DNA of 64,000 nucleotides, taken from the NCBI RefSeq assembly GCF_004519335.1, contig NZ_SOZD01000004.1, forward strand, positions 1-64,000, in the 5' to 3' direction. Positions 16,722 to 28,462 of the stretch are shown here, in pieces. Position numbers and translations under genes: made by a program. The stretch's first letter is position 1; each line of letters opens with the position of its first letter. This DNA is from Jiella endophytica (GTDB taxonomy: Bacteria; Pseudomonadota; Alphaproteobacteria; Rhizobiales; Rhizobiaceae). Under the pieces are notes generated by a model. That model was not told the DNA's origin, ran no database searches, and worked only from the letters and a program-made list of their open reading frames with translations.

Positions 16722-17380
16722 GCTCCCCGCAACGCAGCTAGCCTCGCTCCAGATTCATGTGGCAGCGTCACAGCTTAAAGCGTTCTTCCGGTCGGAAAAC
16801 TGGCGGCGCTTTCAAGCGAAGATGTCCGGCCCGCACACAGCCATTCGGGAAGGCTGCAGCCTCCCGTCGCGATGCCCGAGCGACTGCCCGCATCGGCCCG
16901 CCAATCGGGATCGATCGTCGGAAAGCACGATGCGGTGATGCAATCGAGAGGACGGCGCGCGAAAATCGCCGCCCGACCCGGATGCGACAAGACACCGCCG
17001 CATCTGCGCCGCTTTGTCGTTCGAAGCTTATGCGAGCATGCGGCCCTGGCGCCGCACCCTTCAGGCGAAGGGACAAGGCGATCACGACGATGGTGAACGG
17101 CTGCGACCATCCGGCCGCTTGCGGCCCATCTCGCCGCAGCCCACTTGATTCAGGGACGGCACGGTGAAACTGTTTCGCAGTGCAGTATGACGGCCGGGAG
17201 ATTCGGCCAGCGCGGCGCATAGTGATCGAACCGGGCCGCGATTGCAAGAGGCGAAGCCTCCCTTTTGTGAAATTTAATGATTGTTTTCAAAGGTTTGGCG
17301 TGTAGCATGGCGTAGTCGGGACTGACGGGCATGCCCCGCGAGCGACGCTCGAAGCGTGCCATGGCGAATGGAGGTGGGTG
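16722..17380. other. Long leader region before prkA
   Basis: No gene supported. It contains a short copy of the dispersed palindromic element (16890-16950). The 17230-17330 part is AT-richer and probably carries the promoter of the prkA operon. I looked for sigma-54 and EcfG boxes and did not find a properly spaced pair. Confidence 0.5.
16890..16950 (+). repeat. Dispersed palindromic element, copy 3 (short)
   Basis: GCATCGGCCCGCCAATCGGG, a degenerate CGATCGTCGG block and GCACGATGCGGTGAT match the left half of the 12264-12366 copy. The right-hand hairpin is missing or decayed. Confidence 0.65.
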
Positions 17381-19318
17381 ATGAGCGCATTGTTCGACCA
17401 GTACGCCAGGACATACGAACAGCGGCGGGAAACCGTGATGTCGCTGTCGCAGTTTCTCGAAAAATGCCGGGATGATCCGATCCTCTATGCCGGGCCACAC
17501 GAACGGCTCTTGGCGGCGATCGGCGAGCCGGAGATGGTCGACACCTCGCTCGACTCGCGGCTCGGGCGGATCTTCCAGAACCGGACGATCCGCACCTACA
17601 AGGCGTTTCCGGACTTCTACGGCATGGAGGAGACGGTCGAGCGGATCGTCGCCTTCCTGCGCCAGGCCGCGCAGGGGCTCGAGGAACGCAAGCAGATCCT
17701 CTATCTCCTCGGCCCGGTCGGCGGCGGCAAGTCGTCCCTCGCCGAGCGCATCAAGTCGCTGATCGAGAACCAGCCGATCTACGTGCTGAAGGCCGGCGAC
17801 GAACTCTCACCCGTCTTCGAGAGCCCGCTCGTGCTCTTCGACCCCGAGACCATGGGCGAGACGCTGGAGGCCGAATACGGCATTCCCCGGCGCCGGCTCT
17901 CCGGGCTGATGAGCCCCTGGTGCGTCAAGCGGCTCGACGAGTTCGGCGGCGACATCTCGAAGTTCAAGGTCGCCAAGCTGATGCCCTCGCGGCTGAAGCA
18001 GATCGGCGTCGCCAAGACCGAGCCCGGCGACGAGAACAACCAGGACATCTCCTCGCTCGTCGGCAAGGTGGATATCCGCCGGCTGGAGACCTTCGCCCAG
18101 AACGACCCGGACGCCTATTCCTACTCCGGCGGCCTCAACCGGGCGAACCAGGGCGTGCTCGAATTCGTCGAGATGTTCAAGGCGCCGATCAAGATGCTGC
18201 ATCCGCTGCTGACGGCGACGCAGGAAGGCTCCTATGTCGGCTCGGAGAATATCGGCGCGATCCCGTTCACCGGCATGATCATGGCCCACTCCAACGAATC
18301 GGAGTGGAAGAGCTTCAAGAACAACAAGAACAACGAGGCCTTCATCGACCGCATCTATGTGATCAAGGTCCCCTACTGCCTCAGGGTCGACGAGGAGACC
18401 CGGATCTACGAGAAGCTCGTCTCGGGCTCCGAACTCGCCGAGGCGCCCTGCGCTCCCGACACGCTGGAGATGCTGGCGCGCTTCGCCGTGCTGTCGCGGC
18501 TGAAGCCGCACGAGAACTCCTCGCTCTATGCCAAGATGCGCGTCTACAACGGCGAGAGCCTGCGCGAGGTGGACCCGAAGGCCCGCACCATGCAGGAATA
18601 TCGCGACGCGGCCGGCGTCGACGAGGGCATGAACGGCATCTCGACGCGCTTCGCCTTCAAGGCGCTGTCGGCGACCTTCAACCACGACACCGAGGAGGTG
18701 GCGGCCGACCCGGTGCATCTGATGTACGTCCTCGAACAGGCGGTGCGCCGCGAGCAGTTCCCCGAGGACATCGAGAGCGACTATCTGGAGTTCATCAAGG
18801 CGGACCTTGCGCCGCGCTATGCCGAGTTCATCGGCAACGAGATCCAGAAGGCGTATCTCGAAAGCTATCACGACTACGGCCAGAACCTCTTCGACCGCTA
18901 CGTCTCCTATGCCGACGCCTGGATCGAGGACCAGGACTACAAGGATCCCGACACCGGCCAGCTGCTCGACCGCGACCTGCTCAATCAGGAGCTCACCAAG
19001 ATCGAGAAGCCGGCGGGCATCGCCAACCCCAAGGACTTCCGCAACGAGGTGGTGAAGTTCTCGCTGCGCTCGCGAGCGGCGAACCGGGGCCGCAATCCGT
19101 CCTGGACCAGCTACGAGAAAATCCGCGACGTCGTCGAGAAGCGGATGTTCAGCCAGGTGGAAGACCTCCTGCCGGTCATCTCATTCGGATCGAAGAAGGA
19201 TTCCGAGACGGAGAAGAAACACAACGAGTTCGTCGATCGGATGGTCGAGCGCGGGTTTACGCCGAGGCAGGTGCGGCGTCTCGTGGAATGGTATATGCGT
19301 GTGAGGCAGGCGAGCTGA
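17381..19318 (+). CDS. prkA: PrkA family serine protein kinase
   Basis: A 645-residue AAA+/kinase protein of the PrkA (YeaG) family. The P-loop is LGPVGGGKSSLAER near residue 110, inside the AAA_PrkA domain (FQNRTIRTYKAFPDFYGMEETVERIV). The C-terminal third is the kinase-like PrkA domain. In enterobacteria YeaG acts in sustained starvation and stress; homologues are also described as Lon-like proteases in Bacillus. GGAGGT lies 5-6 bases before ATG 17381 and is the best ribosome site in the region. It is the first gene of prkA-yeaH-ycgB, the usual conserved trio. Confidence 0.96.
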   Translation: MSALFDQYARTYEQRRETVMSLSQFLEKCRDDPILYAGPHERLLAAIGEPEMVDTSLDSRLGRIFQNRTIRTYKAFPDFYGMEETVERIVAFLRQAAQGLEERKQILYLLGPVGGGKSSLAERIKSLIENQPIYVLKAGDELSPVFESPLVLFDPETMGETLEAEYGIPRRRLSGLMSPWCVKRLDEFGGDISKFKVAKLMPSRLKQIGVAKTEPGDENNQDISSLVGKVDIRRLETFAQNDPDAYSYSGGLNRANQGVLEFVEMFKAPIKMLHPLLTATQEGSYVGSENIGAIPFTGMIMAHSNESEWKSFKNNKNNEAFIDRIYVIKVPYCLRVDEETRIYEKLVSGSELAEAPCAPDTLEMLARFAVLSRLKPHENSSLYAKMRVYNGESLREVDPKARTMQEYRDAAGVDEGMNGISTRFAFKALSATFNHDTEEVAADPVHLMYVLEQAVRREQFPEDIESDYLEFIKADLAPRYAEFIGNEIQKAYLESYHDYGQNLFDRYVSYADAWIEDQDYKDPDTGQLLDRDLLNQELTKIEKPAGIANPKDFRNEVVKFSLRSRAANRGRNPSWTSYEKIRDVVEKRMFSQVEDLLPVISFGSKKDSETEKKHNEFVDRMVERGFTPRQVRRLVEWYMRVRQAS

Positions 19319-19350
19319 GCGACTTCCTCACGCTTTCCACGGGATAAACC

Positions 19351-20652
19351 ATGCACATCATCGACCGTCGTCCCGACCCCGGGGGCAAGAGCCTCGCCAA
19401 CCGCCAACGCTTCATGCGGCGCGCCAGGGCGCTGGTGAAGCAGGCGGTGCGGGAAGCCTCCGGGTCGCGGAAGATCCGGGAGATCGACGGCGGCGGCGCC
19501 GTCACCATCCCGGCCGACGACGTCCACGAGCCGAGCTTCCACGCCGGCCGGGACGGCGGCATGCGCGACTATGTTTTGCCGGGCAACAAGAAATTCGTCT
19601 CCGGCGACCGCATCCAGCGGCCGCGGCAGGGCTCCGGCTCCGGCTCGGAGGGCAGCGCCGACGGCGAGGGCGAGGACAATTTCCGCTTCGTCCTGTCGCG
19701 GGACGAGTTCCTCGACCTCTTCCTCGAGGATCTGGAGCTGCCCAATCTCGCCAAGCGCCAGGTGATGGGCGACGCGGTGGAAAAACGTCATCCCGCCGGC
19801 TTCAAGACCTCCGGCCCGCCAGCGTCCCTGTCGGTCGGCCGAACGATGCGACGCAGCCTGTCCCGACGCATCGCGCTGAAACGGCCGAACCCGGTCGAGC
19901 TCGACAGGTTGCGCCGCGAACTCTTCGAACTCGAGACGTCGAGCGGCGACGGCGCCCGCATCGCCATGCTGCGGGCCGAGATCGAGCGCCAGGAGCGGCG
20001 CGCCAAGGTCATTCCCTTCATCGACCCCGTCGATCTTCGCTACCGGCGCATCGAGGTAACGCCCGAGCCGATCGCACGGGCGGCGATGTTCTGCCTGATG
20101 GACGTCTCGGCCTCCATGGACGAGCACATGAAGGACCTTGCCAAACGGTTCTTCTCGCTGCTCTATCTGTTCCTGACCCGGCGCTACAAGCAGGTCGAGA
20201 TCGTCTTCATCCGCCATACCCACGAGGCCAAGGAGGTGGACGAGGAGACCTTCTTCCACTCGCGCGAATCCGGCGGCACGGTGATCTCCTCGGCGCTGAT
20301 CGAGATGGCCAGGATCGCCAAGCAGCGCTTCCCGCCGGACCAGTGGAACATCTATGCCGCCCAGGCCTCGGACGGCGACAACCTTTCCTCGGACAATGCC
20401 CGCTCGGTGGCGCTCCTGCGCGAGACGATCCTGCCGATGGCGCAGTACTACGCCTATCTGCAGGTCGGGCGCGGCGACTTCGACCGCGAGGACGGCGTCT
20501 TCGCCCGCCAGGAAACGACATTGTGGCGGGCCTATCAGGAACTGGTGCGGCCGAACCTGCCGATGGCGATGCGCAAGGTGAACGACCGGCGCGACATCTA
20601 TCCGGTGTTCCGCGAACTCTTCGAGCGCCGCGACGAGCCGGCGGAGACCTGA
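19351..20652 (+). CDS. yeaH: YeaH/YhbH family protein (DUF444, vWA-like)
   Basis: A 433-residue cytoplasmic protein of the UPF0229 (YeaH/YhbH) family. The N-terminal half is basic with a Gly/Ser-rich linker (QGSGSGSEGSADGEGEDNF). The C-terminal half is a von Willebrand A-like domain with the MIDAS motif DVSASMDEH near residue 250. It always accompanies PrkA; its biochemical role is unproven, but it is thought to be a kinase partner or substrate. It starts 32 bp after prkA. Confidence 0.94.
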   Translation: MHIIDRRPDPGGKSLANRQRFMRRARALVKQAVREASGSRKIREIDGGGAVTIPADDVHEPSFHAGRDGGMRDYVLPGNKKFVSGDRIQRPRQGSGSGSEGSADGEGEDNFRFVLSRDEFLDLFLEDLELPNLAKRQVMGDAVEKRHPAGFKTSGPPASLSVGRTMRRSLSRRIALKRPNPVELDRLRRELFELETSSGDGARIAMLRAEIERQERRAKVIPFIDPVDLRYRRIEVTPEPIARAAMFCLMDVSASMDEHMKDLAKRFFSLLYLFLTRRYKQVEIVFIRHTHEAKEVDEETFFHSRESGGTVISSALIEMARIAKQRFPPDQWNIYAAQASDGDNLSSDNARSVALLRETILPMAQYYAYLQVGRGDFDREDGVFARQETTLWRAYQELVRPNLPMAMRKVNDRRDIYPVFRELFERRDEPAET

Positions 20653-20655
20653 GCG

Positions 20656-22218
20656 ATGGCGAGAATGGCAAAGAAGGCCGCCCCGGCGGCCCCCACCGGC
20701 GAGCCACTGTTCACCGGCCGCGACTGGGACTTTCCCCTGCTCTCGAAGGTCTATGGCGCGATCGAGGAGATCGCCGACAACGAGCTGAAGCTCGACATCT
20801 ATCCCAACCAGATCGAGGTGATCACCTCCGAGCAGATGCTCGACGCCTATGCCTCGACCGGCATGCCGCTGTTCTACAAGCACTGGTCCTTCGGCAAGCA
20901 CTTCGTCAGGAACGAGACGCTCTACCGCAAGGGCTGGCAGGGCCTCGCCTACGAGATCGTCATCAATTCGAGCCCCTGCATCGTCTACATCATGGAGGAG
21001 AACTCCGCGACGATGCAGACGCTGGTGCTGGCGCATGCCGCCTTCGGCCACAACCACTTCTTCAAGAACAACTACTGCTTCAAGCAGTGGACCGACGCGA
21101 CCAGCATCCTCGACTATCTCGCCTTCGCCAAGAACTACGTCGCGACCTGCGAGGACCGCTACGGCCAGGAGATGGTCGAGCAGGTGCTCGACGCCGCCCA
21201 CGCGCTGATGAGCCACGGCGTCCACCGCTATCCCGGCAAGCATGCGGTGGATCTGAAGTCCGAGCAGCGCCGGATGGAAGAGCGCAGGGCCTTCGCCGAG
21301 GAGCACTTCTCCGACCTCTGGCGCACGCTGCCGAAATCGCCGGACGGGCCGAAGCGCGACATGGATGCCGAGCGCCGTCGCCAGCTGCTCGGCCTGCCCG
21401 AGGAGAACATCCTCTACTTCCTCGAGAAGAACGCCCCGCGCCTCGCCGGCTGGCAGCGCGAGCTGATCCGCATCGTCCGCCAGATCGCCCAGTATTTCTA
21501 TCCGCAGCGCCAGACCAAGGTGATGAACGAGGGCTGCGCCACCTTCACCCACTACCGGCTGATGACCAGGCTGCACGAGCAGGGCAGGATCACCGACGGC
21601 GCCTATATGGAGTTCCTGCACTCCCATACCTCCGTCGTCTTCCAGCCGGAATATGACGACCAGCGCTATGGCGGCATCAACCCCTATGCGCTGGGCTTTG
21701 CGATGATGGAGGACATCGAGCGGATCGCCCTTACACCCACACAGGAGGACCGGGCCTTCTTCCCCGATTTTGCCGGCTGCGGCGACGCTTACGGCGTTCT
21801 GCGCAATGCGTGGGAAAACTATCGCGACGAGAGCTTCGTCCTGCAGTTCCTCTCGCCCAACGTCATCCGCAAGCAGAAGCTCTTCCGGCTGATCGACGAT
21901 TCCGAGGAAGACGACATCGTCGTCGCCTCGATCCACGACGAGCACGGCTACAAGGCGGTGCGCCAGTCCCTGTCGCGGCAGTTCGACGTCGGACGGCAGG
22001 ACCCGGACATCCAGGTGGCGGATGTCGATCTCGCCGGCGACCGCAAGCTGATCCTGCACCACAATGTCGTCGACGGCGTGACGCTGGACGGCAAGGATGC
22101 GGCGAAGGTGCTGCACCACCTCGCCAATCTCTGGGGCTACGACGTCAAGCTCCTGGAGATCGAGGACGGCCACACCGTCGCCGCCCATGACGGCTCGCCC
22201 TCCCGGGCGTTCCGCTGA
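20656..22218 (+). CDS. ycgB: SpoVR/YcgB family protein
   Basis: A 520-residue protein of the SpoVR family, of normal length. Conserved blocks: YPNQIEVITSEQMLDAYAS, MPLFYKHWSFGKHF, INSSPCIVYIMEENSATMQ, FGHNHFFKNNY and NEGCATFTHYRLM. In Bacillus SpoVR is needed for spore cortex; in Gram-negatives it belongs to the PrkA-YeaH-YcgB stress set. Function unknown in molecular terms. It starts 3 bp after yeaH, so the two are translationally coupled. Confidence 0.95.
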   Translation: MARMAKKAAPAAPTGEPLFTGRDWDFPLLSKVYGAIEEIADNELKLDIYPNQIEVITSEQMLDAYASTGMPLFYKHWSFGKHFVRNETLYRKGWQGLAYEIVINSSPCIVYIMEENSATMQTLVLAHAAFGHNHFFKNNYCFKQWTDATSILDYLAFAKNYVATCEDRYGQEMVEQVLDAAHALMSHGVHRYPGKHAVDLKSEQRRMEERRAFAEEHFSDLWRTLPKSPDGPKRDMDAERRRQLLGLPEENILYFLEKNAPRLAGWQRELIRIVRQIAQYFYPQRQTKVMNEGCATFTHYRLMTRLHEQGRITDGAYMEFLHSHTSVVFQPEYDDQRYGGINPYALGFAMMEDIERIALTPTQEDRAFFPDFAGCGDAYGVLRNAWENYRDESFVLQFLSPNVIRKQKLFRLIDDSEEDDIVVASIHDEHGYKAVRQSLSRQFDVGRQDPDIQVADVDLAGDRKLILHHNVVDGVTLDGKDAAKVLHHLANLWGYDVKLLEIEDGHTVAAHDGSPSRAFR

Positions 22219-23312: not shown

Positions 23313-24224
23313 ATGATGAAGTTCGACGGACTGGCCGCCTTCGTCGCCGTGGCGGAAGCGGGATCGATCAGCGCTGCGGCCCGGCGCCTCGGCCTGGCGA
23401 AGTCCGTGGTCAGCGAGCGGCTTGCCGAGCTCGAGCGCTCCGTCACCGCCCGTCTGGTCCAAAGGACCACCCGCAAGCTGTCCCTGACGCCGGACGGGAC
23501 CGTGTTCCTCGAGCGCGCCCGCACGATCCTGCGCGAAATGGAAGAGGCAACGGCCGAGATGACCGAGCGCCGCGGCTCGCTCACCGGGCCGCTGCGGATC
23601 GCCGCGCCGACCGGCTTCGGGACGCTTCACCTCAGCGCCGCTCTCCATGGCTTCCTCGCGGCCCATCCGGCGATCCGGATCGACCTCGAGCTCGACGACC
23701 GCTTCGTCGACGTCGCGGCAGACGGCTTCGACGCCGCGATCCGCCACGGGCCGATCCATGACGGCCGGCTGGTCGCAAGGCACCTCGCCTCGAGCCGCCG
23801 CCTGCTGGTCGCCTCGCCGGCCTATCTCGAGCGGATGGGGACGCCCGTTTCGCTGGACGATCTCGAGGCAGCCTCGGCGATCCTCTACAGCAACCGGGAT
23901 TCCGACTGGCGGTTTCGCGACGCGGGCCGGGACGTCGTCGCGCGGCCGAAGCCGTGCCTGCGGGTGAACAACGGCATCGTCATGCGCGACGCGGCGGTGG
24001 CCGGACTCGGCATCGCCTTGCTGCCGACCTTCTTCATCCACCAGCAGCTGGCGGCCGGCGCACTCCGGGCGATCGACATCGGCCTCGAAGCGGAAGGCGC
24101 GACGCTGCATCTCGCCTATCCGGCCAATCGCAGCCCCTCTGCCAAGATCGTCGCCCTGACCTTATGGCTGCGCCACGCATTCGGCGCGCCGCCCTATTGG
24201 GAAGCGGCGCTTGCGCCTCAATAG
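23313..24224 (+). CDS. LysR-family transcriptional regulator
   Basis: A 303-residue LysR regulator. The N-terminal winged HTH reads FVAVAEAGSISAAARRLGLAKSVVSERLAELERSV (about residues 9-43). The effector-binding domain starts near residue 90 (GPLRIAAPTGFG) and is of the CrgA/DsdC-like type. A second ATG follows directly at 23316. By position it probably controls the divergent hydrolase. Its last 7 bases overlap the end of the convergent octapeptide-repeat gene. Confidence 0.92.
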   Translation: MMKFDGLAAFVAVAEAGSISAAARRLGLAKSVVSERLAELERSVTARLVQRTTRKLSLTPDGTVFLERARTILREMEEATAEMTERRGSLTGPLRIAAPTGFGTLHLSAALHGFLAAHPAIRIDLELDDRFVDVAADGFDAAIRHGPIHDGRLVARHLASSRRLLVASPAYLERMGTPVSLDDLEAASAILYSNRDSDWRFRDAGRDVVARPKPCLRVNNGIVMRDAAVAGLGIALLPTFFIHQQLAAGALRAIDIGLEAEGATLHLAYPANRSPSAKIVALTLWLRHAFGAPPYWEAALAPQ

Positions 24225-27200
24225 GACCGGTAGGCCGACATGATCGCGGCGATCTGCAGGGTGTCGAGCGCCTGAACCTGGGCGTTGGTGACGGCCTGGA
24301 TCTGCTCGAGCCGCAGGCTGCGGATGTCGTCGGTCGAGAGGCCGGGCAGCGCCGCCGTGCTGATCGCCGCGATGTCGGCCGTCGAGAAGGTCGAGAGCTG
24401 GCTGGTGCTGAGCGCGGCGATCTGCGCCGAGCTGAGGCTCGCCACCTGGCTCGGGGTCAGGGCTTCGGCCTGCTCGGAGGAGAGGACGGCGATCATGTCG
24501 ACCGTCAGGCCGTTGACCGCCTTCGGGTCGATCGCGGCGATCTGCGTCGCCGAAAAGGCGGTGATCTTGTCGGTGCCGAAGGTCGCCACCTGCACCGCAT
24601 TGAAGGCGCCGATCTGCGCCGCAGTCAGCGCCTTGACCTGGAATGTGTCGAGCGCCCTCAGCTGGTAGTAGGACAGCGTCGCGACCTGCGAAGTCGTCAG
24701 CGCGGCGATCTGGTCGCTGCCGAGTGCCGCGATCTGGTCGGCCGAAAGCCCCGCGATCGAAGCCGGCTTGATTGCCGCAAGATCGCTGGCCGAGAAGGTC
24801 GCGAGATCGGCGGCGTCGAGGGCGGCGATCTGGGTGGCGGTAAGGGCGCCGATCTGGGTGGCGGAGAAGCCGTCGATCTGGGCCGAGGTCAGCGCCTCGA
24901 TCTGCGTCGGCGTCAGGCCGGCGATCGCAGTGCTGGCGATGGCGCCGATCTGCGCTGTGCTGAAGGCGGCGAGGCTGTCGCTGCGCAATGCGGCGATCTG
25001 GGTCGCGCTGAGCGCGGCGATCTGCCCGGTCGTCAGCGCCTCCGCCTGGGAGGGCGTCAGCGCGGCGATCTGGGTGGTCTGCAGGCCGGCGATCTGGGTG
25101 GTCTTCAGGGCCGCCACCTGATCGAGGCTGAGGGCCGCGATCGTCTCCGCCGGCAGCCCGGCCATCGCCGCCGGGGTCAACGATGCGAGGCTGGCGCCCG
25201 GCAGCGAGAGGAGCACGGCGGGGTCGATCCCCGCCACCTGCAACGCGCCAAGGGCGCCGAGCTGGGCCGTGGTGAGGCTTGCCACCTGGCTGGGGCCGAG
25301 GGCGCCGAGCTGCGTCGGCGTCATGCCGGCGACCGCCTTGGCGTCGAGGGCGGCGATCGCCTCGTTCGGCAGCGAGGCGATCTTCGTCTCGGAAAGGCCG
25401 GCCATCTGCGTGGCGGTGACGCCGCGCCATTGCGCCGCGGTCAGACCGCTCATCTGGGCCGCGGACAATGCCTCGATCTGGCCGGAGCCGAGGCCCGCGA
25501 CCTGCGCCGCCGTCAGCGCCGCGATCTGGTCGCCTGTCAGTGCCTCGACCGCTTCCGTCGAGAGGCCGGAGATCGCCGAGCCGGCAATCGCCGCGATGTC
25601 GGCGGCGGAGAAGGTTTCCAGCGCGCCGGGTCCGAGCGCCGCGAGCTGCGTCGCGGTCAGCGCCGCGATCTGGGTGGTGGTGAGGCTGTCGATCTGCCGG
25701 GCGCTCATCCCGGCGATCTGGTCCGGGGTAAGGCCGGCGATCGTCTTGGCGCTGAGAGCGGCGAGCTGCTCGCTCGAAAGCGCCGCAAGACGGTCGGCGG
25801 GCAGCGCGGCGACCTGCGATGCCGTTACGCTGCGGATCTGGGCGGTGGAAAGCCCGGCAATCTGCGTCGGCGTGAAGCCGGCGAACTGGGCCGGCTTCAG
25901 CCCGGCGATCTGGGTCGCCGAGAGCGCCTGAAGCTGCTCCAAGGGAAAGGTCGCGATCGTCTCGGCGGCAAGGCCGGTGATGGCGGCAGGGGTGATCGCC
26001 GCAATGTCGGCGGCCGAGAAGGTGGCGATGTCGGCGGCGCTCAGCGCCCCGACCTGCGCCGCGCTCAGCGCCGCGACCTGCGTCGGCGTCAGGGCTTCCG
26101 CCTGCAGGGTCGAGAGACCGGAGATCTGCGCCTCGGTGAAGCCCGAGACCGCCTTGGCGGCGATCGCCGCCATCTGGGTCGTCGAGAGCGCGGCGACGGC
26201 CTCGCTCGTGAAGGCGGCGACCTGCGTCGCCGTGAAGGCGCGGATCTGCGTCGTCGACAGGGCGGCGACCTGCGAGGGGCCGAGCGCTGCGGCCTGGGCC
26301 GGCTTCAGCGCGGCGATCTGCGCCGCAGTCAGCGCCGCGACCTGGGCCTCGCCGAGGCCGGCGATCGCCTCACCGGAGATCGCCGCGACGGCGCTCGCCG
26401 ACAGCGCGGCGAACTTCTCCGGCGAAAGCGCCGCCAGCTGGTCGTTGTCGAATGAGGTCAGTTGCTGCGGCTTCAGCGCGGCGACCTGCGCCGGCGTCAG
26501 CGCCTCGATCTGCACCGATGTCAGCGCCTCGATCTGGCCGCCGGTGAGCCCCTCGATCGCCTTGGCCGGGATGGCAGCCACCTGTTCCGGCGACAGGACG
26601 GACACGCCGTCGGCGGAGAGCGCCGCAAGCTGCGTCATGGTGAGCCCACGGACCTGCGCGGCCGTCAGCGTCTCGATCTGCGATGCCGAGAGCGCTCCCG
26701 CCTGGGCGGCCGACAGCGCGCCGATCTGCCCGGCCGTCAGCCCGGCCACCTGGTCGAGGCTGAGCGCCGAGACGATGTCCGGCGATAGGCCGGCGATCGC
26801 CTTGGTGCCGATCGCCGCGATGTCGGCGCGGGAGAATGTCTCGATCGCCGCCGGCGTGAAGGCGCCGATCTGCTGGACACCGAGCTTTCCCACCTGGGTG
26901 GTCGTCAGCGCCTCTGCCTGGGCCGGCGTCAGCGCGCCGATCTGGGCGGTGGTGAGCCCCGATACGGCGGTCGGCGTGATCGCAGCGATCTGCTCGCCGG
27001 ACCAGTCGCGGGTGGCCTCCAGAGAAAGCGCCGAGATCTGCGCCGCGCTCATTGCCCGGATCTGCAGCGGCGACAGGGCCGCACCCTGCGCCGGGGTCAG
27101 GGCGGCGACCTGGCTCGGTTTCAGCGCGGCTGTCTGCGCCGCGGTCAGGGCGCCGACCTGATCGAGGGAGAGCGCTGCGATGCTGAGCTGCGACAGGCCG

Positions 27201-28462
27201 GCGATGGCGCCCGGCGCGATCGCCGCGATCCTGGCCGGGGACAGCGCCGCGAGCTGCTCGGCGCTGAGCGCGGCCACCTGATTGAGGTTCAGCGCACCGA
27301 TCTGCGCCGTCGTCATCGCCCCGGTCTGGGCGACGGTGAGGCCGGCGATCTGCAGCGCCGAAAGGCCGGAGACCGCCTTCGGGGAGATCGCCGCGACCTG
27401 GGTCGGCGAGAGCGCGGCAAGGCCGTCCGTGCCAATGGCGGCAATCAGGGTCGCGTTGAAGGCGCCGATCTGCGCCGGCGTCAGCTCCTGCAGCTGGCCC
27501 TGCGTCAGGGCCTTCGCCTGGCTGGCCTTCAGCGCGGCGATCTGGCCCGCCGTGACGGCGCCGAGCTGCTCCGCGCTCAGGGCCGAAATGGCGGCGGCGG
27601 ACAGGCCGGCGACGGATTTCGGGCTGATCGCGCCGATGTCGGACGGCGAAAAGGCGGCGAGCTGGTCCGGAGTGAAGGCCGCGATCTGCTTGGAGCTGAG
27701 GACGGCGATCTGCTGCGGGCTGAGCGCTTCGGCCTGCTCGGGCTGCATCGCGGCGATCTGCGCACTGGAGATCCCGGTGATCGCCCGCGTGCCGATGGCG
27801 CCGATCTGGGGGCTCGTCAGCGTCGCGAAGTTGTCAGGCGACAGCGCGGCGATCTGGGTCGGGCCGAAGGCGCGGATCTGGCCCGTCGAAAGCGCCTTTA
27901 CCTGCTCGGCGGTGAGCGCCCGGATCTGGCTGGCCGTCAGGCTGGCGACCTGGCTCGCCGTCATCGCAGCAACCTGATCGGCGGTGAGGGAGGCGATCTT
28001 CTCGCCGGAAAGGCCCGGCAGCGCGCTGGGGCTGATCGCAGCGATGTCGGCGGGGGAAAACGTCGCGAGGTCGGCGATCGAAAGCGCCGCGATCTGGGTG
28101 CGGCCGAGGCCGGCGATCTGGGCGGGGGTCAGCGCCTCGGCCTGGTCGGCGCTGAGCCCGGCGATCTGCGCGCCGCTGAGCGCGGCGACCTGGGCGGTGC
28201 CGAGGCTGGCGATCTTGTCGGTGCCGAGCGCCGCCAGCTGCTCCGGCGTCAGCCCGCTGATCGCCTTGGCGGAGATCGCCGTCACCTGCGCCGCCGAGAA
28301 GCCAGCAATGCTTTCGGTTGGCAGGGCCGCGACCTGCGACGAGGACAGCGCCCCGAGTTCCGCCGTCGTCAGCGCCAGGAGATCCTCGACGCTCCACGTC
28401 GCCAGCGTCCGTGCGGGAACGGACTTGATTTGCAGGGTGCTTTGCGAGGAGATCGTCGTCAT
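24218..28462 (-). CDS. Giant octapeptide-repeat protein, unknown family
   Basis: A 1414-residue protein of which all but about 33 N-terminal residues are a continuous run of octapeptides. The consensus is (A/G)-(L/F/I)-(T/S)-x-x-Q-(I/V)-(A/x), as in ALTAAQIA, GLSADQIA and AFTPDQLA. I count about 170 octads with no insertions. Special octads of the type AI-x-x-x-A-(I/V)-x, always followed by G-(L/F/M/I), mark a higher order. The spacings run alternately 10 and 7 octads, giving nine units of 16-18 (mostly 17) octads. Octads TFSxADIA often precede the marker of the 7-type block. No Cys, His, membrane segment or signal peptide is seen. The T/S-x-x-Q pattern is a typical helix N-cap, so a solenoid of short helices is plausible. 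Role unknown; a secreted or surface scaffold or adhesin is possible. Start ATG 28462; a GTG at 28477 is also in frame. Confidence 0.85.
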   Translation of the reverse strand: MTTISSQSTLQIKSVPARTLATWSVEDLLALTTAELGALSSSQVAALPTESIAGFSAAQVTAISAKAISGLTPEQLAALGTDKIASLGTAQVAALSGAQIAGLSADQAEALTPAQIAGLGRTQIAALSIADLATFSPADIAAISPSALPGLSGEKIASLTADQVAAMTASQVASLTASQIRALTAEQVKALSTGQIRAFGPTQIAALSPDNFATLTSPQIGAIGTRAITGISSAQIAAMQPEQAEALSPQQIAVLSSKQIAAFTPDQLAAFSPSDIGAISPKSVAGLSAAAISALSAEQLGAVTAGQIAALKASQAKALTQGQLQELTPAQIGAFNATLIAAIGTDGLAALSPTQVAAISPKAVSGLSALQIAGLTVAQTGAMTTAQIGALNLNQVAALSAEQLAALSPARIAAIAPGAIAGLSQLSIAALSLDQVGALTAAQTAALKPSQVAALTPAQGAALSPLQIRAMSAAQISALSLEATRDWSGEQIAAITPTAVSGLTTAQIGALTPAQAEALTTTQVGKLGVQQIGAFTPAAIETFSRADIAAIGTKAIAGLSPDIVSALSLDQVAGLTAGQIGALSAAQAGALSASQIETLTAAQVRGLTMTQLAALSADGVSVLSPEQVAAIPAKAIEGLTGGQIEALTSVQIEALTPAQVAALKPQQLTSFDNDQLAALSPEKFAALSASAVAAISGEAIAGLGEAQVAALTAAQIAALKPAQAAALGPSQVAALSTTQIRAFTATQVAAFTSEAVAALSTTQMAAIAAKAVSGFTEAQISGLSTLQAEALTPTQVAALSAAQVGALSAADIATFSAADIAAITPAAITGLAAETIATFPLEQLQALSATQIAGLKPAQFAGFTPTQIAGLSTAQIRSVTASQVAALPADRLAALSSEQLAALSAKTIAGLTPDQIAGMSARQIDSLTTTQIAALTATQLAALGPGALETFSAADIAAIAGSAISGLSTEAVEALTGDQIAALTAAQVAGLGSGQIEALSAAQMSGLTAAQWRGVTATQMAGLSETKIASLPNEAIAALDAKAVAGMTPTQLGALGPSQVASLTTAQLGALGALQVAGIDPAVLLSLPGASLASLTPAAMAGLPAETIAALSLDQVAALKTTQIAGLQTTQIAALTPSQAEALTTGQIAALSATQIAALRSDSLAAFSTAQIGAIASTAIAGLTPTQIEALTSAQIDGFSATQIGALTATQIAALDAADLATFSASDLAAIKPASIAGLSADQIAALGSDQIAALTTSQVATLSYYQLRALDTFQVKALTAAQIGAFNAVQVATFGTDKITAFSATQIAAIDPKAVNGLTVDMIAVLSSEQAEALTPSQVASLSSAQIAALSTSQLSTFSTADIAAISTAALPGLSTDDIRSLRLEQIQAVTNAQVQALDTLQIAAIMSAYRSY

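Follow-up and report, generated by a model that had tools for sequence, protein, structure and literature searches.

Proteins made of ALTTAQ octapeptides are known from the Pfam family PF20080, which is named but uncharacterised. A literature search, with preprints and most subscription journals outside its reach, found no paper on the function of ALTTAQ, PF20080 or HeliScrew proteins, and some public records name ALTTAQ proteins "ICE nucleation protein" or "heme utilization protein". The Encyclopedia of Domains paper sets out a broad class of "extruded repeats" (PMC7618865). A similar solved protein is HeliScrew4 (PDB 9zem, 120 residues), which has about 14 consecutive octads of the kind described below; it is short, and its name suggests that it may have been designed. 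Here we describe an ALTTAQ-repeat gene in a stretch of 64,000 nucleotides from Jiella endophytica (contig NZ_SOZD01000004.1, positions 1 to 64,000; "the window" in the following). The gene (24218..28462) lies on the minus strand, as do all of its parts given below, and was defined by its translation, 1,414 residues plus the stop codon, and by its PF20080 match. The reading that we prefer, with a confidence slightly above an even chance, is that of a fixed-length, probably exported ALTTAQ rod forming one continuous alpha-solenoid; its fold is predicted, and we infer its export and function. New here are a proposed geometry of 3.4 octads per turn, a frozen length and, in relatives, linkage to genes for type I secretion and for glycosyltransferase family 41 (GT41).

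The window protein scored 633.8 bits against PF20080 (curated cut-off 26.4; E 8.7e-196; 54 stretches), and all 39 PF20080 matches in the genome lie in this gene, while the single NCBIfam match was far under its cut-off. An earlier note on this DNA had known of no described structure or function for such repeats. With regard to function, the search above found no describing paper; with regard to structure, the statement no longer holds fully, since HeliScrew4 has been solved and the family has a name. In a phmmer search HeliScrew4 matched over 110 residues with an E-value of 2.9e-19 (6.9e-30 by profile); it was not among the 50 Foldseek matches listed for either of the models described below (library to April 2026). 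The note had also envisaged a profile search that would place the protein in a characterised family; the family found, PF20080, is uncharacterised. By its sequence the protein is a member of this already named family and does not represent a new one. The PF20080 model has 38 positions, fewer than five octads, and is therefore unable to carry the order of 17 octads that is treated next.

The octad register is unbroken from residue 30 to residue 1405 (24248..28375) and comprises 172 octads, as seen in the sequence, with the consensus (A/G)(L/F/I)(S/T)xxQ(I/V)(A/G). Octad positions are counted from 0 throughout, and position 3 is the residue after the N-cap. The N-terminal cap (residues 1-29, 28376..28462) does not follow the strict octad pattern; its start, MTTISSQ, is conserved in five copies of the same genus (loci L041-L045). 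The C-terminal cap (residues 1401-1413, 24224..24262) is one helix of 13 residues in the AlphaFold2 model, and the tail is partly invariant in six proteins of the genus. The protein contains no Cys and no His, has 25% Ala and 19% Ser plus Thr, and carries a net charge of about -38. The earlier note thus had the coordinates, the length and the lack of Cys and His right, the strand being minus, and its estimate of about 170 units after some 33 N-terminal residues was very close.

A higher order is superimposed on the octads. Twenty marker octads follow each other at intervals of 10,10,7,10,7,10,7,10,8,9,7,10,7,10,7,10,7,10,7 octads, exactly as described in the note. A regular expression found 15 of the 20, and octads 34, 112, 129, 136 and 153 were identified by eye. 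Because three of these five are loose (ALSAKTIA, ALDAKAVA, SLTPAAMA), the marker octad is a tendency rather than a strict motif. The irregular pair of intervals, 8 and 9 (residues 630-773, 26144..26575), does keep the total of 17, as had been claimed. The resulting module of 17 octads has 136 residues and 408 bp, for example residues 86-221 (27800..28207). Residue autocorrelation peaks at lags 272 (0.443) and 136 (0.429), compared with 0.327 at lag 8. When whole octads were shuffled, which preserves the 8-residue repeat and destroys any higher order, the identity at a lag of 17 octads fell from 0.439 to a mean of 0.333 (1,000 shuffles; sd 0.011, maximum 0.367), and no spectrum maximum among 300 shuffles came up to the peaks of the octad spectrum at 2/17, 7/17, 5/17 and 3/17. 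We conclude that the 17-octad module is real. In 21 of 22 proteins, the seven strongest lags include lag 17. At the DNA level, the expected 24-bp period was recovered in degenerate form: Tandem Repeats Finder reported 22 rows with 61-95% matches, one with a period of 12 bp and the rest short degenerate arrays of 24 or 48 bp. A 408-bp row, which had also been expected, was absent from its output for periods up to 500. Because of this degeneracy and the missing 408-bp row, we take the module to be probably old.

The 10/7 rule would fit a superhelix in which one turn takes about 3.40 octads (27.2 residues). A free fit with a fundamental and two harmonics gave a period of 3.396 octads, or 27.2 residues, for the window protein, with a fit strength H of 60.2 compared to a maximum of 24.9 in 40 shuffles; the next best period was 8.511 (H 42.9). 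Of 32 family proteins given to this test, two with fewer than 60 octads were dropped, and 24 of the remaining 30, the window protein included, had their best period at 3.37-3.45 octads. These 30 are not independent, since several come from one genome, and register-broken copies were entered with their commonest phase only. The spectrum of the window protein points in the same direction. The aliased harmonics 1-4 of 5/17, at 5/17, 7/17, 2/17 and 3/17, have the four strongest powers (16.2, 18.6, 27.9 and 14.0), while harmonics 5-8 are weaker (9.6, 8.8, 8.6 and 6.2). No other of the eight possible k/17 fundamentals places the four strongest powers in its first four harmonics, and the power share of harmonics 1-4 is 0.70 for 5/17 versus 0.39-0.59 for the other seven. 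Lags that differ from 17 (27, 44 and 61 octads in several proteins, 24 in L055) are also close to whole numbers of turns; strong lags away from whole turns are 52 in L055 and 1, 2 and 3 in L040. With 3.4 octads per turn, 7, 10 and 17 octads would correspond to about 2, 3 and 5 turns, and the markers would form one stripe along the rod. The number of turns in space is thus a value that the periodicity suggests. The "basic module" of 136 residues proposed in the note is real, but the simplest geometric unit would be the turn of 3.4 octads, with 17 octads making five turns. This gives a simple geometric reason for the 10/7 pattern and would make ALTTAQ sequences readable as stripes on a rod. The secretion-linked proteins at L069 (9701-15613) and L076 (9952-14637) have a very strong alternation of two octads (16 residues), which the window protein lacks.

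The AlphaFold2 models cover both ends of the protein. Residues 1-442 were modelled with a mean predicted local distance difference test score (pLDDT) of 94.3 and a predicted template modelling score (pTM) of 0.82, residues 973-1414 with 94.5 and 0.81, from alignments of self-shifted copies and rows from locus L037 (24 and 20 rows, some overlapping identically). Each model contains 54 helices, about one helix of 4-7, mostly 5-6, residues per octad followed by a turn, and no strand. In the N-terminal cap, residues 1-3 have a pLDDT below 50 and the helices begin at residue 9. The idea of a solenoid of one-turn helices started by Thr or Ser is strongly supported by these predictions. Leucine-rich repeats form curved solenoids with one strand per repeat of 20-30 residues. 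Matches to them in the Pfam and PDB searches were rejected as a sign of membership, since neither model has a strand, and would be an effect of periodic Leu; no stretch of leucine-rich repeat or sigma-factor Pfam families passes individually, and kinship with these was likewise rejected. Among solved structures, Foldseek ranked mesothelin (7ued, 8cx3) best for both models (E 8.1e-6 and 9.2e-5, probability 1.00), followed by further helical-repeat proteins, and the PDB profile search also yielded mesothelin, weakly (E 0.14). Mesothelin, a human protein, is described as a right-handed solenoid whose 24 short helices form nine layers, with mixed ARM and HEAT repeats and disulfides, and solenoids of the ARM/HEAT or mesothelin type have repeats of 30-40 residues with 2-3 helices (PMC10035497). 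With TM-scores of 0.16-0.35 the likeness is local only, and from the models we take it to reflect architecture and not kinship. Membership of the ARM/HEAT or mesothelin type was rejected because of the 8-residue units, the helices of 4-7 residues and the roughly 27 residues per turn.

Against viral models, 6 of 404 Foldseek matches had an E-value of 0.001 or less. The best was an uncultured phage protein of unknown function (BFVD A0A6J5QPU1; E 3.1e-6, 18% identity, TM 0.18/0.14), which may hold a related short-helix solenoid. A phage origin of the window gene was rejected: tblastn in phages returned two records, both deposits of a single phage, with 14% coverage and 22.5% identity, and the four matching PHROGs families have no known function and no stretch that passes alone.

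Within the genus the length of the protein is constant in octads. Seven of ten genomes of the genus contain the repeat, and six of these seven could be aligned; the copy of G001 (L041, 8785-13036) is split by a frame change and was excluded. The G001 assembly is less complete (84%), and the split may be an assembly error. The six proteins, the window protein included, align end to end, the others being 56-65% identical to it. Five whole proteins have 1,411-1,417 residues, and the sixth (L046) is cut at its start by a contig end. The alignment has one internal gap of three residues and one of a single residue, and no whole octad has been gained or lost. Gln is the usual residue at position 5, which is invariant in 70% of the octads; positions 3 and 4 are so in 13-14%. 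An ungapped comparison, valid for L042 and L045 and not for the other three proteins because of their gaps, gave same-place identities of 0.58 and 0.60 versus 0.43-0.47 after a shift of 136 residues. Because six species keep an equal number of octads, we take the length of the rod to be under selection; the copy number is frozen in the genus.

The distribution of the family is patchy. In a search of relatives, ALTTAQ proteins were present in 12 of 61 genomes and 6 of 52 genera; in the family they were found in 38 of 247 genomes and 21 of 106 genera (E <= 1e-7), and in a sample of the class in 6 of 289 genomes, the own genome included. In addition, 57 plasmid records match the window protein. 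A distant match (25% identity) is located on plasmid psAtri5 of Spiroplasma, an insect endosymbiont (L082, 13120-16572). The window gene is flanked by LysR and PolA genes, neither of which was found adjoining the repeat gene in L041-L046; L041 and L044 share both flanks, and L042 and L046 share a histidine-kinase gene. Elsewhere in the window, on the plus strand at 17378-22215, genes for PrkA, DUF444 and SpoVR stand in a row, which we take to be the common bacterial trio yeaG-yeaH-ycgB.

Outside the genus the repeat gene often adjoins a gene for a protein with a tetratricopeptide repeat (TPR) and a Glyco_transf_41 domain, similar to O-GlcNAc transferases. With the 699-residue protein of L052 as query, GT41 matches (E <= 1e-20) were obtained in 11 of 12 ALTTAQ-positive relatives versus 9 of 49 negative ones. 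Counted by genus, the ratio was 6/6 versus 7/46 (one-sided Fisher p 8e-5, not corrected for the tree). Each of the five other positive genera (G012, G020, G023, G026, G046) has a GT41 next to one or more of its repeat genes, and additional repeat genes of G023 and G026 lie apart from it. The class sample shows linkage in G206, G287 and G231 but not in G092 (GT41 elsewhere) and G181 (no GT41); overall, linkage was found in 7 of 10 ALTTAQ-positive genera from relatives and class samples. Among 31 further ALTTAQ genomes of the family, 20 have one GT41 match each at E <= 1e-100 (57-94% identity) and 11 have none at this threshold; for 18 of the 20 the matches listed include a repeat on the GT41 contig at a distance of up to 10 kb, and for G481 and G497 they place the repeat on contigs other than that of GT41. 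On plasmids, 27 of the 57 ALTTAQ records are also in the best 60 of 61 GT41 records (E <= 1e-40), and in 26 of these 27 the best places are within 10 kb of each other, with about 3.9 expected by chance. With the Cereibacter records and the CCGE531/532 pair each counted once, the ratio is 15 of 16 versus 1.65 expected; the exception is CP131057, with 380 kb between the genes. The other 30 ALTTAQ plasmid records, which include most Shinella records, have no GT41 on the same replicon among the matches listed. UDP-galactopyranose mutase was rejected as a general partner, since it occurs in 16 of 61 genomes and is repeat-adjacent only in G012, G020, G023 and G026 plus some plasmids.

The linked proteins are also rich in possible acceptor residues. 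Position 3 is Ser or Thr in 0.53-0.97 of the octads of 16 GT41-linked proteins, compared to 0.23-0.37 in the seven proteins of the window's genus. The mean is 0.79 for the 16 linked proteins versus 0.53 for 22 others (Mann-Whitney p 0.0018; overall Ser/Thr p 0.015), in a comparison for which the position was picked post hoc, relatedness was left uncorrected, the GT41 status of several of the others is not known, and one protein is a partly masked fragment. Several unlinked proteins are as rich as linked ones (L037 0.96 and 0.74, L040 0.80, L050 0.84, L071 0.68, L061 0.55, L064 0.57), and therefore a high Ser/Thr content does not require a neighbouring GT41. The low values in the window's genus would fit a loss of the acceptor site. 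The GT41 matches of this genus have 34-44% identity and do not adjoin the repeat. The window protein is probably part of a branch that has no GT41 dedicated to it.

In some relatives the repeat and GT41 genes are joined by type I secretion genes. On plasmid pA of Cereibacter sphaeroides 2.4.1, a laboratory strain, genes for the repeat protein, GT41, a peptidase-domain ABC transporter and HlyD stand side by side, a group that we regard as a putative glycosylation and export cassette. In the corresponding record (L076, 9952-20246) the ALTTAQ protein is annotated as "ICE nucleation protein" and is divergent to an O-linked acetylglucosamine transferase, the peptidase-domain ABC transporter and HlyD. 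TolC, HlyD and an ATPase are encoded in the repeat and GT41 cassette of Pseudomonas asturiensis pCC1524, ABC and HlyD in that of Pseudoroseomonas cervicalis pL11-A; according to Pfam, the G206 cassette has ABC and HlyD and the G287 cassette has ABC. No type I secretion genes were found in the four Rhizobiaceae GT41-linked plasmid regions examined, and the idea that an ABC transporter and HlyD are the two conserved neighbours at such Rhizobiaceae loci was rejected, since Pfam identified these as GT41 and UDP-galactopyranose mutase. An ABC query matched 13 of 13 genomes tried and was therefore non-discriminating, and in the window's genus linkage to type I secretion was not found. Type I cargo usually is Cys-free and acidic, as is the window protein. 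For the earlier suggestion of a surface or secreted scaffold, the relatives with type I secretion genes thus provide indirect support, and the window gene's own neighbourhood provides none.

In the fixed-length rod that we favour, each octad would form a short helix with Ser or Thr as N-cap at its start. About 3.4 octads would make a turn, giving about 50 turns in the window protein, and marker octads 7 and 10 apart would align on one stripe. Helical solenoids usually have 0.9-1.0 nm between turns, so that the rod, with its N-terminal cap and its longer C-terminal capping helix, would be about 45-50 nm long. Relatives are encoded next to type I secretion and TPR-GT41 genes; by analogy, the rod is most likely exported to work at the cell surface or beyond it, where it would be a spacer, a scaffold or an adhesin stalk. 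A number of observations weigh against this reading. Six of the 30 proteins deviate from the common period (L040, 3.02; L069 and L076, 2.00; L070, 6.90; L074, 6.01; L077, 2.45), although the value of 2.00 is partly a counting artefact, as harmonics 1 and 3 coincide at a frequency of 0.5, and 3.38-3.44 is the second-best period in L070, L076 and L077. The 3.4 octads per turn come from sequence periodicity and not from model coordinates, and alignments of self-shifted copies can inflate the confidence of AlphaFold2. The E-value of the phage protein resembles that of mesothelin, which suggests that the structural neighbourhood of the models is loose. No neighbour common to all same-genus loci was found, and neither a GT41 nor a secretion gene was among the tested neighbours of the window gene (LysR, PolA and others). 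In the same genus, G003 and G004 carry GT41 without the repeat and G008 carries the repeat without a GT41 match. The sole GT41 match of the own genome (E <= 1e-20) is about 200 kb away from the window gene, near flagellar genes. Finally, type I secretion genes are named in 3 of 14 annotated plasmid regions, which were picked and not random.

Other explanations have to be weighed against the exported rod; the confidence that we place in the various readings overlaps and is not meant to sum to one. The most serious is that of an intracellular scaffold: the rod would stay in the cytoplasm and, in the manner of HEAT/ARM solenoids, use its repeated face to bind other proteins. This we consider unlikely, yet worth keeping in mind. 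The lack of an obvious N-terminal signal sequence (by eye) and of a secretion gene among the tested neighbours would agree with it, as would the Foldseek neighbours, mesothelin and helical-repeat proteins, many of which are intracellular. However, type I cargo carries no N-terminal signal, and its absence is expected anyway; relatives adjoin type I secretion genes, and the patchy presence together with the differing gene places within the genus fits an accessory exported product better. Somewhat less probable still, and overlapping with the exported rod, is an O-glycoprotein: like its GT41-linked relatives, the window protein would be glycosylated on exposed octad Ser/Thr by a cytoplasmic TPR-GT41 and then exported. 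The linkage in 7 of 10 positive genera, in family genomes and on plasmids, the abundant Ser/Thr at position 3 of the linked proteins and the single TPR-GT41 of the own genome speak for it, and FlmG, a TPR-containing enzyme that O-glycosylates flagellin in the cytoplasm of Caulobacter, provides a precedent (PMC7591256). On the other side, position 3 is rarely Ser/Thr in the genus, and no GT41 was found adjoining the window gene. The own TPR-GT41 is located with a nucleotidyl transferase near FlgEFG-type and FliI-type genes (G000, contig C23, about 220813-231616; L075). Because of this location flagellin would be its likelier substrate, which suggests flagellin glycosylation in this organism.

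Two further explanations have next to no weight. Long open frames on both strands could point to a low-complexity or out-of-frame translation artefact of a GC-rich stretch, but this is refuted by the orthologues, six of which conserve frame, length and octads with an invariant position 5 in 70% of the octads, and it also disagrees with the Pfam family and with 9zem as a solved relative; we give it practically no credence. A DNA-binding array like that of transcription activator-like (TAL) effectors is just as far-fetched: LTxxQV recalls their LTPxQV superficially only, the period is 8 and not 33-35, the protein is acidic, and no TAL family is among the Pfam matches. We therefore return to the exported rod: we read the window protein as a fixed-length helical rod that is probably exported and on which a dedicated GT41 probably does not act. 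A more far-reaching scheme is tentative, and we would sooner expect it to fail in some part than to hold throughout. In it, ALTTAQ proteins are exported rods with about 27.2 residues per turn; one branch would be decorated by GT41 on [ST][ST]xQ before type I export and yield a sugar-coated surface fibre, while in the branch of the window protein, for which no dedicated enzyme partner was found, the acceptors would be mostly Pro or Ala and the rod would be frozen at about 50 turns.

With this, the uncharacterised ALTTAQ family gains a testable role, as substrate of the linked GT41 and as cargo of type I export, which can be compared with two described pairs of enzyme and substrate. The HMW1 adhesin, one of these substrates, is not an octapeptide rod. 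The HMW1C/HMW1 pair resembles the ALTTAQ cassettes in that a GT41-type enzyme is paired with an exoprotein, and differs from them in its N-linked glycosylation and its two-partner secretion (PMC3012730). The other enzyme is FlmG of Caulobacter, whose TPR part binds the flagellins. FlmG likewise combines a TPR with a glycosyltransferase and acts in the cytoplasm on a substrate that is exported afterwards; this substrate is flagellin, however, which leaves the cell through the flagellar apparatus, and the text of the paper does not use the term GT41 (PMC7591256).

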